Positions 16,104 to 25,520 are shown, counted from the first letter of the stretch. The stretch is 64,000 nt of DNA from Fibrobacter sp. (GCA_012523595.1 JAAYIG010000105.1:1-64000), one strand, 5' to 3'. The notes: generated by a model from the sequence alone, not told the origin. A program made the numbers and translations.

Positions 16104-16165
16104 TCTTTAAATTCCATAACCGGGTGTTTTTTTTAATATATTTGAAAGCAAACCGGAGGCGTTTG

Positions 16166-17692
16166 ATGAACAATTTGACAGGGAAAATAATAGGCGGGTG
16201 CCGGATAGTGTCCAAAATTGGCCACGGAGGCATGGGTGCTGTCTATAAAGCTCATCATCTGGCTCTGGACATCCCTGTGGCTATCAAAATTCTTCAACCT
16301 CTTTCAGCTACAGAAGGTGCAGAGGAGAGATTTCTCCGCGAGGCACGTATAGCCGCAAGACTGAGACACCCGCATATAATCGGTGTTCATGATGTCGGCT
16401 GTGAAAAGGGACTGCACTATATCATCATGGAATTCATCGAGGGTAAAGATCTCCTCTCCATCATCAAAGAAACCGGTGGAATCAAACCCGATGAAGCGGT
16501 GCGGATAGCAATCGAAGTGCTGGAAGCACTTCAATTTGCAATGGAAAATGGAATCGTGCACAGAGACATCAAACCTGAAAACATCCTGCTGGAGAAGGGC
16601 AGGGTCAAACTGGCAGACCTTGGGTTGGCGAGGATAGATGGCGACACATCGCTCACCCAGTCCAACACAGTACTCGGCAGCCCTCACTATGTAGCACCCG
16701 AACAGGCCGAAAACCCCGGAGCAGCAGATTGCAGATCAGATATCTACTCTCTGGGTTGCACTCTTTACCACATGATGGCTGGAAATGTTCCTTATCAGGG
16801 TTCTACTCCGGTTGAAATCATTCTTAATCATATAAAAACTCCGGCACCTATTCTGCATCTGGTAAATCCTGATATTCCTGAGCCCCTTTCCAGAGTTGTT
16901 TCAAAAATGATGGAAAAGGATCCTGACGCACGTCTGAAGACTCCTCTGGAAGCTATTACTGCACTGAAAAGAGCGATAGATAATACCCAGCAGCAACAAC
17001 AACCATTACCCCCTCCTCCAGTTGAAGCTGCTCCTGTCCAACCACCCGAAAAGAAAAATGATAACACTGCACTACTACTTACATTAGTATCAATATGTAT
17101 AATGATTGTGCTTTCGATTTTTGTTTTCAGGACACCCTCAAAGGGACACCAGGTGCAGAACCCTTCCGGTCTTGTTGCAGGGCAGAAACCAGAGCAATCA
17201 AAACCAACTGACACAGCTACAGTTGATCAAAGCAGGAAACCTAAGAAAACATCCCCCAAAAAACGTAAAACACCTGAACCAAAACCAGTTTCACAAACTA
17301 TCAGTAAACCTGTAACCGGGAAAAATCCGGTCCTTGAAGCTGTAAAGATCGGAGATACAGGGGAGTTGAAACGCCTGCTCAAAGAGGGTGCTTCATCTGA
17401 TGTACCCGCGGGTTCTCCCACTTCCCCTCTTCATGAGGCAGTACGAAGAGGATCCACCGAACAAACAGAACTTCTCCTGAAAATGGGTGCCCGACCAAAT
17501 GTCCGTGATAAATATGGTGACGCTCCTCTGCACTATGCTCTACGGGAAGATGCTGTGTTAATTGTCAAAATCCTTCTGAAGGGTGGCGCTGATGCCAATC
17601 TCAAAGACCGCAGAGGAAGAACCCCTTTGAAAATCGCCTCAGGAGTGGACACCGAGCTGGAAAAGATCGTTAAGGAATATGGAGGGAGGTAA
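16166..17692 (+). CDS. Membrane Ser/Thr protein kinase with C-terminal ankyrin repeats
   Basis: 508 residues from the ATG at 16166 (GGAGG six bases upstream; the frame is open 14 codons earlier). PknB-like kinase domain at about 12-270: glycine loop GHGGMGAVYKAH, Lys41 in VAIK, HRDIKPEN at 132-139, DLG at 151-153, APEQ at 177-180, all catalytic residues present. A Pro/Gln-rich linker, a single membrane helix (about 301-321) and a Lys/Pro-rich linker follow. The last 115 residues are about three ankyrin repeats (SPLHEAVRRGSTEQTELLLK, APLHYALREDAV). If the kinase is cytoplasmic, the ankyrin part is periplasmic and may be a sensor domain in place of the usual PASTA repeats. Confidence 0.93.
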   Translation: MNNLTGKIIGGCRIVSKIGHGGMGAVYKAHHLALDIPVAIKILQPLSATEGAEERFLREARIAARLRHPHIIGVHDVGCEKGLHYIIMEFIEGKDLLSIIKETGGIKPDEAVRIAIEVLEALQFAMENGIVHRDIKPENILLEKGRVKLADLGLARIDGDTSLTQSNTVLGSPHYVAPEQAENPGAADCRSDIYSLGCTLYHMMAGNVPYQGSTPVEIILNHIKTPAPILHLVNPDIPEPLSRVVSKMMEKDPDARLKTPLEAITALKRAIDNTQQQQQPLPPPPVEAAPVQPPEKKNDNTALLLTLVSICIMIVLSIFVFRTPSKGHQVQNPSGLVAGQKPEQSKPTDTATVDQSRKPKKTSPKKRKTPEPKPVSQTISKPVTGKNPVLEAVKIGDTGELKRLLKEGASSDVPAGSPTSPLHEAVRRGSTEQTELLLKMGARPNVRDKYGDAPLHYALREDAVLIVKILLKGGADANLKDRRGRTPLKIASGVDTELEKIVKEYGGR

Positions 17693-21005: not shown

Positions 21006-22787
21006 TCAAGGCATCAGAAATTTGCCGGTAACAATCTGCTCACCCTTCCGGACCTGAATAATGCGCGTGCCGCTGCTTTGAGAGGGAAGATCCGCCTTAA
21101 AGCAGTTATTTCCAGCTTTTGCTGAAACTGTTTTCCTGAAGAGACATTTCCCATTCAAATCAAACGCCTGAATCTGAGCAGGCCCGGATGATGGAGATGA
21201 GAATCTGATTTCTGAGCTCCTGAAATTGAAATCTATTCCGGAGAGGATTTTCTGACGGGAAATACGTCCCTTATCTACAGATAAACTAGCGTTACCTGGC
21301 GATGGTTCTGCTTCTCTCCAGTTTTCAGGCTCACAGCCAAACGACCGTAGATTGATCCTTACAATTGATTTTCCTGGCGCAACCTGCGGCCAGGGAGCTT
21401 TTGTACCGTATGCTACCAGATCGATAAGATAATAAGGAACGATTGTTTCAGTCCCGTCAACATACGGATCACTGGGCATCTCAACCCGGAGCTCTTCACC
21501 ATTCTTAGACAGATTACCTGCATAACGGAATACTTTTACAGAAGAAGGAACATTGTAGGTCATCCTGAAATCATTGATACTCACAGAATCAGAGATAACA
21601 AGCACAACCTCACCAGGATCCAATACAACACTCTGTGGAAAAGAAAAGGAGAGCCCCCCGATTGTCCAGGTGTTAAGAGGCTTTTCAGGATCATACAATG
21701 TCAGTTCTAAATCTGATATGTTAATCAGTTCGACATAATCAGCTCCGCCTTCAGCATTATAATTGATTTCTGATATTACCAGCGGACCGATCCAGGGGGC
21801 AGAATTTTTTGACCCCAGAGTCACATCCTCAAGATTAACAAAAAACTCCTCTCCGGAGGAAACTTCTACTCTTCCGACTGAAACGCCTTTTGATGTCTCT
21901 CCGAACTCAAAACCATGACTTTGGCCTGTCAATTCACCTTTCTTATCCACTGGAAAAAGATATACTCCTTCACCGTGGGCACTGAGCGCAAACCCAAGAT
22001 CATCAGGGTTGAAATCATCAGCATCAAACACTATATAGGACTTAGGCTCCATCACCGTTCCGTCAGGAATTTTAAACTTCTTCGGTTCGCTTTTTTTATC
22101 TGTCAAATACCACCCGCTTATATCCACAGCTTTAGAATGAGTGTTATAAAGCTCAATGGCATCTTTCTGATTCGAACCAGGATTTGCGAGTATCTCATTG
22201 ACCCTTATTTTCATTGCATCATAATTCTGAGCAGGATCATCTTCACCTGGTGATCCGCCAATCGCAGTTGATACTCTCCACCATGAAGCATCATTTGGAT
22301 CACCGGATCCATCACTGGAAGCCATTACAAGTGAAAAACCGGCTCCATCCGCGGCTTCCGGCCAGGGACTATCTGTTTCATATTTCACAGAAAAAATCTC
22401 CGTTTTGGAAGTTGTGTTCATAAGCACTATTTTCTCTCCACTGTTGGAGAGATGGCCTGTAAAGACTCCAAAAGGAGCAAACCCATACCGCTGCTCAAAG
22501 TACTCGGCATTATAGGCCAAAACCAGAAACTCACCGGGACCAAGCTCTGCTTTTGATGGAAATGTATAAGTTATGCCTGTATTAAACGCATACCCGGTAA
22601 GGGAAACAGTCGAATCACCTACATTTGTCAACTCAATAAACTCAAACTCATCTCCATCTACAGTGCCCTCCTCCAGAGGATGATAATGTATCTCTGAAAT
22701 GACAATCTGAGCAGATGAAATAGAGACTACAGCCAATAAAGATATTGCTGCACCAACAAAAAGATCTTTAAATCTGTTCTTTCTCAT
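21006..22787 (-). CDS. Secreted protein with three lamin-tail domains and a sorting-like C-terminus
   Basis: 593 residues from the ATG at 22787 (GAGGGGG upstream, seven bases after the stop of the CotH gene; an ATG 21 bases further up overlaps that gene). A signal peptide ends near ISSAQ. Three lamin-tail (LTD) immunoglobulin-like units follow, each opening with IxISEI or RVNEI and an E(F)IEL/AIEL/YVEL motif, at about 28-150, 195-310 and 340-470. The last 60 residues (IQAFDLNGKCLFRKTV ... GTRIIQVRKGEQIVTGKFLMP) resemble a type IX-type sorting tail. It is probably displayed at the cell surface together with the CotH protein encoded just upstream. Confidence 0.88.
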   Translation of the reverse strand: MRKNRFKDLFVGAAISLLAVVSISSAQIVISEIHYHPLEEGTVDGDEFEFIELTNVGDSTVSLTGYAFNTGITYTFPSKAELGPGEFLVLAYNAEYFEQRYGFAPFGVFTGHLSNSGEKIVLMNTTSKTEIFSVKYETDSPWPEAADGAGFSLVMASSDGSGDPNDASWWRVSTAIGGSPGEDDPAQNYDAMKIRVNEILANPGSNQKDAIELYNTHSKAVDISGWYLTDKKSEPKKFKIPDGTVMEPKSYIVFDADDFNPDDLGFALSAHGEGVYLFPVDKKGELTGQSHGFEFGETSKGVSVGRVEVSSGEEFFVNLEDVTLGSKNSAPWIGPLVISEINYNAEGGADYVELINISDLELTLYDPEKPLNTWTIGGLSFSFPQSVVLDPGEVVLVISDSVSINDFRMTYNVPSSVKVFRYAGNLSKNGEELRVEMPSDPYVDGTETIVPYYLIDLVAYGTKAPWPQVAPGKSIVRINLRSFGCEPENWREAEPSPGNASLSVDKGRISRQKILSGIDFNFRSSEIRFSSPSSGPAQIQAFDLNGKCLFRKTVSAKAGNNCFKADLPSQSSGTRIIQVRKGEQIVTGKFLMP

Positions 22788-22794
22788 GGCCCCC

Positions 22795-25272
22795 TCACTC
22801 AAAAACAAATTTAATGTTGTCTATCGCAAGATAACCTTTATCAGGTACTACAGAAAGCTCACCAGCAGCATCAAACATTGCACTCGGTGTAAATACCAAT
22901 CCCGTAACTGATCTTTTCACCTCTTCAAGAATATCAGGATTTGATGGATCACCCCAGGAGGGATAAGAGATATCCGACATTTCGAAAACATATATCTTGT
23001 TGTTCGTTCCAACATAGAAATCCGTCCAGCCGTATTCTGTATCTGCACCACTGTCTGCATAAACCGGACTGGCAAGATACACACGCATGTATCTCATAGC
23101 ATCGGATTTCATATTGACACGAATCTCCTTCAATTCACTCAGATCAGCCATTTCATCAAACAAGACTCCCATCCCGGACCACTCTGAATACCTTTCATTA
23201 TCCTCTATTTTAGCATATTCAAAATTAAAAAGTAAATCGGCTGTTCCCCACAGGGGATTTTCAGTATTATGAGTTAATTTTGTGATCGTTCCTTCTGAAG
23301 CATAGGCATAGGCAAATTTGACCGTAGATACTGGAGTAAACTCAAAGTTATTGGTACGATCCGTTACTAAGTAACCATTACCAACAAATGGAACCGAATA
23401 ATCCGATGTATCCATCACCTCTTTGCGCCCATGGATATAATCATCGAATTTCTTGCATAATGTCACTACATCCTTTCTCAACGACTCAACCTCAGCCTCC
23501 CAGGTTTTCTTCTCCACTACGGGATCTATTTCCACCACATCTGATATAACCTGCTGATACTTGTCAATCTTATCCTGCAAGGAATCAGACCGGAACCATG
23601 TCGCAAGAAAATCTTCCCCTGCTTTTACAAATTTATTCCACTGAGTGGCAGCAATCAGAGAGGTCAATTTATCACAACCTGGAGGAATAACATTTGTTGT
23701 ACCCCAAACCTTCATCGGACCACAGCTCTCAGGAACTTCGTTCCAGTTCGGAATATCAGCATCTTCTATAAATGGATCATTTTTCCAGAATGTATTGTCA
23801 AGATCCCAGGGGATTATCCAGCATTTACCTCCGGGATTCTCCTCCTCATATAAGAAGTAATTATGGTTACTTGCGTCAGAAGTACTACTGCCATACCAGG
23901 CCATTATCCCATCCCAGTTATTAATAGCTCTGTCAACTACAATATAGTTCACCCAGTAATCAAGATCTATAAAAGGAGAGACATTTTGGACAAAATTCTG
24001 TTGAGTAGAACTATTGATTGCATTATAAAAAGAGACCATCCCGGTAGCATCAGGGGTTTCACCATAATCGTTGTTGGTTTTCAGTTGGAGTAAATAGTGA
24101 TTGATGTTACTGGTTTTCGGCCAGGCTTCTTTATAAAGATTCCCGTCACCGTATTCCGGCCATCTTGATTTTGTAAACCTGCCGTCAATAGACTCCACAG
24201 CCACAAAGAGTCCCTGGAAAACATTATTTATGTAAACCTTCACGTATGCTGTCCGGGGACTGTAAATACCCATTTTCCGGAACATCTCATAGGAGAGCAT
24301 ATCATGCATTTTACTGTCATCCGCAGACATCGAGTGCAGATTTAGTTCCTTCATGAGATAGAAACGGGTGGTGTCCACAAATTTATTGAATTTCACCTTA
24401 AAGGAGATTTTTTTACACACAGGTTTATCCTCCCGGTTCCCCTGAAGATCGAAACAATTGGGCAATGAGTAAAATGACCCCTTGTACCGGAATCCTACTG
24501 TTCCATAGGATTTACCATTAAACTGCATCTCTGCACGGACATAGTTTTCCCTGCGTGCCTCTCTCTCCATTTTAAGAGAATCTTCCTTACTGAGCGTAAA
24601 ATAGTAAGAATGCACCTGCATCGGATCAAAAACGTATGCCCTTGGGTCAGGACGCATCCCTATCAGTAAGCCTTCAGTCGTACCGTAAGTTTCAAAATCC
24701 AGAGGATAATACTCATCGTGTCTTAACAGAAGTTTTACATTACCAACCGCAGCGCTCCTTCTGGCAATTGCTTCGGGCATAATACACTCAAACGTACTGT
24801 TGCTCCCGGACATGATCCAGGTTTTTGTAATCTGCCTTTGACCAGATGTAAACCTTACAAGGTAAAGACCTTTGGAAATGGCAGGAATCCGGACTATCCT
24901 TTTTCCTGCTCCAAGATCAGCCCTGAAAACAACCGATCCATCAAGCCTGAAAATCGAAAAGCGCTCCACTGCCTCAGCTTGACTGAAATCAAAAAGCCTC
25001 TGATTCCCCAGAAAACGAATCCTCATCATCCCTACAGAATTTATCAGAGTACCGGCAGCCAACTCTGAAACCTCAAGGGAAAACTTTCCTTCCGAATCTG
25101 TAGTGGTCTTCACAGAGGAATGCCCCACAGACACCAAAGCATTGACCACCGGAACCCTGGAATCTTCCCCATTTACCACTACACCGTTTAATTTAACGGC
25201 TAATACTGGGAAGCAATAGAACAATACCGCCCAGACAACCAACACTGATGTTTTATTTTTGTATAGTTTCAT
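22795..25272 (-). CDS. Secreted CotH-family kinase-like protein with N-terminal carboxypeptidase-regulatory and sorting-like modules
   Basis: 825 residues from the ATG at 25272 (GGGGGTG upstream). Order: signal peptide (1-25); carboxypeptidase-regulatory-like beta sandwich (about 27-72); a module at 101-156 (ERFSIFRLDGSVVFRADL, then SKGLYLVRFTSGQRQITK) that looks like a type IX sorting tail but sits near the N-terminus; the CotH domain (about 225-590) with LMKELNLHSMSADDSKMHDML, GLFVAVESID and the metal-binding IIPWDLDNTFW; and a beta-rich C-terminus that may bind carbohydrate. CotH proteins are atypical kinases, first known from Bacillus spore coats; secreted bacterial forms often carry carbohydrate-related modules. 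Operon with the lamin-tail gene seven bases downstream. Confidence 0.9.
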   Translation of the reverse strand: MKLYKNKTSVLVVWAVLFYCFPVLAVKLNGVVVNGEDSRVPVVNALVSVGHSSVKTTTDSEGKFSLEVSELAAGTLINSVGMMRIRFLGNQRLFDFSQAEAVERFSIFRLDGSVVFRADLGAGKRIVRIPAISKGLYLVRFTSGQRQITKTWIMSGSNSTFECIMPEAIARRSAAVGNVKLLLRHDEYYPLDFETYGTTEGLLIGMRPDPRAYVFDPMQVHSYYFTLSKEDSLKMEREARRENYVRAEMQFNGKSYGTVGFRYKGSFYSLPNCFDLQGNREDKPVCKKISFKVKFNKFVDTTRFYLMKELNLHSMSADDSKMHDMLSYEMFRKMGIYSPRTAYVKVYINNVFQGLFVAVESIDGRFTKSRWPEYGDGNLYKEAWPKTSNINHYLLQLKTNNDYGETPDATGMVSFYNAINSSTQQNFVQNVSPFIDLDYWVNYIVVDRAINNWDGIMAWYGSSTSDASNHNYFLYEEENPGGKCWIIPWDLDNTFWKNDPFIEDADIPNWNEVPESCGPMKVWGTTNVIPPGCDKLTSLIAATQWNKFVKAGEDFLATWFRSDSLQDKIDKYQQVISDVVEIDPVVEKKTWEAEVESLRKDVVTLCKKFDDYIHGRKEVMDTSDYSVPFVGNGYLVTDRTNNFEFTPVSTVKFAYAYASEGTITKLTHNTENPLWGTADLLFNFEYAKIEDNERYSEWSGMGVLFDEMADLSELKEIRVNMKSDAMRYMRVYLASPVYADSGADTEYGWTDFYVGTNNKIYVFEMSDISYPSWGDPSNPDILEEVKRSVTGLVFTPSAMFDAAGELSVVPDKGYLAIDNIKFVFE

Positions 25273-25520
25273 AACACCCCCACCCCACTTAGTAGCACAA
25301 AGACGCACAACAGTTTAATAATACAATGACTCTACCTTATTCCATCGTAAACCTCAGCATGTCTCAATAGTAAAAGACGGCGAAAAATTTAGATTAAAAT
25401 ATCTTCTGCTTATTCAATTCTTTTCAATTTTTGAAATCACTCATAATCTTTCCTAAAACCAAATCATAGACAGCTATTAGCTGGAACAAGAATTGCCCTT
25501 TAACACAAGGAGGTGATATT

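Follow-up and report, generated by a model that had tools for sequence, protein, structure and literature searches.

The window analysed here is a stretch of 64,000 nucleotides from Fibrobacter sp. (GCA_012523595.1, JAAYIG010000105.1:1-64000), part of a 4.1 Mb genome from a family of Fibrobacterota to which, among the named entries of the genome collection, the Chitinispirillaceae belong. It contains two adjacent genes encoding a CotH-family kinase and a protein with three lamin-tail domains (LTD), and both open reading frames were found in the place, on the strand and with the gap that an earlier note on this DNA had given:

22795..25272, minus strand: CotH-family kinase gene, 825 aa, secreted (open reading frame, Pfam, AlphaFold2, Foldseek)
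22788..22794, minus strand: intergenic spacer GGGGGCC, 7 nt, overlapping the ribosome-binding site
21006..22787, minus strand: triple LTD gene, 593 aa, secreted (open reading frame, Pfam)

The CotH gene starts with ATG at 25272 and ends with TGA at 22795-22797 (an alternative GTG start at 25308 is less likely), and the LTD gene runs from ATG at 22787 to a stop codon ending at 21006. As the earlier note had also claimed, both proteins are secreted, signal peptides being seen by eye in each, and both carry the modules it named, with Pfam matches well over cut-off to CotH (PF08757, 136 bits, cut-off 23.8, E 2.7e-39) and to three LTD repeats (PF00932, 141 bits, E 2.2e-41). The ribosome-binding site overlapping the spacer was rated good, and by-chance adjacency of CotH and LTD genes was put, by our own estimate, at <1% for 2 CotH genes and ~6 LTD proteins in a genome of 4.1 Mb; the arrangement of the sequence suggests a two-gene operon. 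Promoter-like sites at the locus were no commoner than in shuffled sequences and terminator-like sites slightly commoner, and neither was used.

Regarding the CotH protein, the following features were assigned:

25198..25272, minus strand: signal peptide, residues 1 to ~25 (by eye; helix 7-20 in the model)
25063..25188, minus strand: CarboxypepD_reg-like (TTR-like) domain, residues 29-70 of the ATG form (Pfam PF13715/PF13620)
24814..24987, minus strand: internal module resembling a type A sorting domain of the type IX secretion system (T9SS), residues 96-153 (TIGR04183)
23476..24417, minus strand: CotH kinase domain, residues 286-599 (Pfam, alignment to solved CotH)
23911-23913, minus strand: catalytic D454 (alignment)
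23860-23862, minus strand: catalytic N471 (alignment)
23803-23805, minus strand: catalytic D490 (alignment)
22801..23355, minus strand: C-terminal jelly roll, residues ~640-824, probably resembling family 11 carbohydrate-binding modules (CBM11) (Foldseek)

The AlphaFold2 model of this protein, from a set of 23 window and locus sequences, has a mean pLDDT of 88.5, and its best solved matches by Foldseek are CotH of Bacillus cereus with AMP (E 1.9e-20) and without AMP (4.2e-20), the match to 5jda having E 1.9e-20 and TM 0.78 by target. Residues D454, N471 and D490 are invariant in all 23 CotH sequences compared, and in the profile alignment NWDG (D454) lies opposite NFDG, and PWD opposite PWD, of solved CotH. 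In B. subtilis CotH, D228 and D251, the latter the metal-binding aspartate, were shown to be catalytic (PMC7821199). The WDLDN motif, said in the earlier note to be kept, is conserved in its first aspartate (D490) but variable in its second. The catalytic role of the asparagine and the residue-by-residue mapping of D454, N471 and D490 onto B. subtilis numbering are assumptions made here, and in solved CotH the asparagine is presumably five residues after the catalytic aspartate; the aspartate five residues before the asparagine in SDASNHN was ruled out as the catalytic one, not being conserved even in the one congener discussed below. The catalytic residues, whose absence would have counted against the earlier note, are present, with D454, N471 and D490 aligned to catalytic positions in a fold matching 5jda, and because of their invariance and the match to the CotH/AMP fold the kinase domain is apparently competent on sequence and fold, so that kinase activity is predicted.

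The next Foldseek matches of the model are CBM11 structures at ~1e-7 (CtCBM11, E 4e-8). The Foldseek output comes without an aligned query range, and from size and position the CBM11-like match was placed on the C-terminal jelly roll, to which it most likely belongs. This fold match favours an interpretation in which the CBM-like domain targets CotH to polysaccharide, where its targets would be proteins bound to the glycan, or else the glycan, while the LTD protein would be no more than co-expressed or would serve as an adhesin in its own right. Such glycan targeting, which is possible and held with little confidence, is the chief rival to a working partnership of CotH and LTD proteins; it agrees with the occurrence of CotH with the same C-terminal region, and without LTD neighbours, in Myxococcota/Deltaproteobacteria relatives and with CotH modules in cellulosomal proteins (PMC6083626), whereas the 7-nt spacing and the conservation of the pair in the congener suggest co-function.

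Regarding the N-terminal modules, the CarboxypepD_reg-like domain scores 20 bits, under cut-off, and is beta-rich in the model, and the sorting-domain-like module scores 24 bits against a cut-off of 23 and is internal, not C-terminal. The same combination (window 24814-25188) recurs at ~30 other places in Chitinispirillaceae, for example in an FGE protein at L094:6533-8062, and an N-terminal site is unusual for a sorting-tail-like domain.

The LTD protein has the following features:

22380..22718, minus strand: LTD repeat 1
21954..22217, minus strand: LTD repeat 2
21363..21788, minus strand: LTD repeat 3, third of three Pfam stretches, limits approximate (from alignment)
21015..21212, minus strand: C-terminal T9SS sorting-tail-like domain (TIGR04183, PF18962)

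The tail scores 19.7 bits against a cut-off of 23 with TIGR04183 and E 0.0026 with PF18962, and the window genome has SprA (SprA_N match in a 2068-aa frame). Export and anchoring of the LTD protein through the T9SS are probable. ExeM-type extracellular nucleases likewise have LTD repeats in secreted bacterial proteins; unlike them, the window protein has no nuclease domain detectable with Pfam. A role as part of an ExeM-like nuclease was ruled out, the ExeM match (17.6 bits against a cut-off of 1300) covering a short LTD stretch only. About 3.3 kb from the LTD gene, at 16124-17692 on the plus strand, the window contains a gene for a Hanks-type Ser/Thr protein kinase, recognized by eye from a glycine-rich loop and VAIK motif near its start.

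Conservation of the pair was investigated in 24 Chitinispirillaceae genomes, with both proteins and both Pfam families as queries. Only two of these genomes, that of the window and that of one congener, have the window CotH beside this LTD protein; the congener shows the same gene surroundings (65% identity for CotH, 55% for LTD). Full-length CotH orthologues are present in ~10 of the 24 genomes, with an LTD neighbour outside the window genome in the congener only, and among 62 named loci with relatives of the window CotH, no LTD gene lies within 10 kb except in the congener and at two loci of Marinoscillum, where the neighbour is a short single-LTD open reading frame. The idea that these two genes are neighbours across relatives was therefore not borne out, as no LTD gene adjoins the CotH orthologue beyond the genus, and by the refuting condition of the earlier note itself the pair does not form a two-gene system of general occurrence. 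The occurrence of the orthologue without LTD in other genera also favours glycan targeting. A recent chance juxtaposition of two surface-protein genes in one genus, without functional link, would fit a pair confined to two genomes of one genus and the expansion of both families in Chitinispirillaceae, which makes such neighbours not very rare; this is considered unlikely, however, given that the 7-nt coupling is kept at 65% and 55% identity and that CotH and LTD are joined in fusions and in shared clusters elsewhere.

CotH and LTD are linked by other routes. In the 24 genomes, ~28 of 99 CotH proteins have an LTD in the same chain, single-chain CotH-LTD proteins are also found in Bacteroidota (L260-L262), and Cthe_0239, a cellulosomal protein of Clostridium thermocellum, has the order LTD-LTD-Fn3-CotH (PMC6083626). 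The last likewise links LTD and CotH in an extracellular, carbohydrate context, but as one chain in a cellulosome, where the window has two genes and a T9SS-type tail. That such fusions are common argues against glycan targeting with LTD as a bystander. The functional link proposed in the earlier note thus finds support in the fusions, in Cthe_0239 and in a shared gene cluster, although the pair itself is rarely adjacent in relatives.

This cluster comprises five genes encoding, by Pfam, DUF4956, an HlyD-type adaptor, an outer-membrane efflux protein (OEP), a VTC domain and an LTD protein (LTD3), and its order was scored with local hidden Markov models built from family members. All five genes, in the order DUF4956-HlyD-OEP-VTC-LTD3, are present at 18 of the 20 sampled loci of non-Chitinispirillaceae Fibrobacterota (L206-L225); the other two comprise one locus cut by a contig end and one with LTD3 alone. 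An LTD3 match was detected in 94 of the 151 genomes of the Fibrobacterota sample, and in the Fibrobacter-rich family f8 nearly all LTD3-matching genomes carry exactly one. Among 10 Chitinispirillaceae genomes with strong-type VTC, the five genes are complete in nine and CotH lies directly upstream of the cluster in five. The window genome has the five-gene cluster at G000:C221 (L095:3517-9885) and a cluster-type CotH at G000:C59, together with arylsulfotransferase-like and FGE-sulfatase-domain genes. Yeast Vtc4, whose structure is solved, is matched by the VTC proteins, and the charged motifs are conserved. A further sample of 148 genomes, identified as Bacteroidota because the L186 genome in its phylum is a Saprospiraceae bacterium, has VTC matches in 20 genomes, the strong ones nearly all adjoining DUF4956. 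One Bacteroidota locus (L258) has the full order CotH-DUF4956-HlyD-OEP-VTC-LTD, confirmed by Pfam, and CotH or LTD is present in six of eight longer-fetched loci, a biased proportion since loci were picked partly for such hits. Searches of the genomes of distant CotH relatives for LTD3 gave partial LTD matches only. The cluster resembles a machine that spans the envelope and includes a polyphosphate-polymerase-like subunit, and it is so far uncharacterised. In the literature searched, a body that leaves preprints and most subscription journals outside, DUF4956 is named in three papers only, and no report joining it with LTD and HlyD/OEP was found.

Three side observations concern these and related genes. 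A three-gene set of arylsulfotransferase-like, FGE-sulfatase-domain and then CotH (530-aa type) genes recurs in Chitinispirillaceae, at L094:4954-9805, L096:4116-8908, L129, L134, L135, L137 and L138. The HlyD-type adaptor is fused to, or precedes, a domain of the DUF3616/phytase-like/SdiA-regulated type in several Chitinispirillaceae (L095:4249-6222, L092:9712-10668, L128:3920-6043), and in two genomes the gene after LTD3 encodes a PHP-domain protein that is secreted (L126:7219-8445, L130:9071-10282).

Among known systems, the Gram-positive Pel accessory cluster, cotH-PPP-DUF4956-DUF4832 (PMC7112168), shares CotH, a VTC-type polyphosphate polymerase and DUF4956 with the envelope cluster, but no LTD, HlyD or OEP is named for it, and the window pair has no adjoining VTC/DUF4956. 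The recurrence of CotH with VTC and DUF4956 in several phyla (PMC7112168) would agree with CotH here being a phosphotransferase other than a protein kinase, one that works with the VTC/DUF4956 machinery and modifies the polymer it makes; this is regarded as improbable, the characterised CotH phosphorylating spore-coat proteins (PMC7821199) and no VTC lying near the window pair. The window CotH shares the kinase fold and the catalytic Asp/Asn/Asp with the Bacillus spore-coat kinase (PDB 5jd9/5jda). Unlike that kinase, it is secreted, is not linked to sporulation, has extra N-terminal modules and a C-terminal, probably CBM-like domain, and has no CotB/CotG-like repeat substrate nearby.

Regarding the relation of the pair to the cluster, VTC and DUF4956 genes are absent from the neighbourhood in the window; both are present at G000:C221 in the same genome. 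The window LTD protein is a paralogue of the terminal gene of the cluster (~39-46% identity to LTD3 paralogues, ~45% to the terminal cluster gene), and in the LTD tree it groups with the congener's protein and, less securely, with both the solo protein of genome G048 and the cluster LTD3 of G036 (94/92). The C-terminal tails of these four proteins align with the sorting tail, while most cluster LTD3 copies have no tail and are lipoprotein-like by eye. In genus g3 (L088, L091), VTC and DUF4956 are preceded by an orthologue of the window CotH, and at L088 a Cthe_2159-domain (carbohydrate-binding) gene lies between CotH and VTC, a neighbourhood that again favours glycan targeting. The g3 cluster (L088:6766-16315, L091:6855-14642) comprises window-type CotH, the Cthe_2159-domain protein (L088), VTC, DUF4956 and a porin-like protein, with a second CotH at L088. 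Each window gene thus has relatives near VTC/DUF4956, since the LTD protein has paralogues in the cluster and CotH has orthologues in g3, and the pair looks like a duplicated, spare-copy kinase-scaffold set from a CotH/VTC/DUF4956/LTD surface system. The two-gene system of the earlier note holds insofar as both genes are adjacent, but the pair appears to be a satellite of the larger envelope cluster.

The preferred interpretation, given about an even chance, is a two-gene operon for a surface pair, a CotH kinase and a T9SS-anchored LTD protein, forming a genus-specific kinase-plus-scaffold offshoot of the envelope cluster. In the parent cluster, VTC/DUF4956 would make a phosphate-rich polymer and pass it across the inner membrane, HlyD/OEP would take this polymer or other cargo through the envelope, with the LTD protein as the outer scaffold. 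The CotH kinase would phosphorylate Ser/Thr of surface partners, with the LTD scaffold, or proteins that assemble there, as first candidate targets, and in the window the LTD protein may be scaffold or substrate of its neighbour. An extension of this scheme, in which trans-envelope polyphosphate synthesis and export by the cluster supply phosphate or energy to the ATP-poor exterior of the cell for secreted CotH kinases phosphorylating the LTD scaffold, with the window pair as a satellite on the same supply, is a long shot.

Several results weigh against the preferred interpretation. Only two genomes, both of one genus, have the exact pair; the CotH heading the cluster in this family is ~30% identical to the window CotH and is not its orthologue; and outside Chitinispirillaceae an adjacent CotH was found in one of the 20 Fibrobacterota cluster loci, a weak case. 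The T9SS tail of the LTD protein scores slightly under the curated cut-off, and the structure model of the LTD protein (2 sequences) had a pLDDT of 35 and was discarded, no interaction being readable from it. The LTD sequence also has no S/K/R repeats, and so no substrate signature of the kind that the known CotH substrates CotB and CotG carry.

The pair itself thus represents a variant, at genus level, of domain partners already known, and the conserved envelope cluster is the more interesting object. Many bacteria that do not sporulate have secreted CotH kinases, for most of which no partner or phosphate donor is known. The present results tie such kinases to LTD surface proteins and to the VTC/DUF4956 cluster, place an LTD protein at the end of an envelope cluster of five genes that is maintained across the sampled Fibrobacter family and also outside it, and name concrete genes and proteins for functional study.

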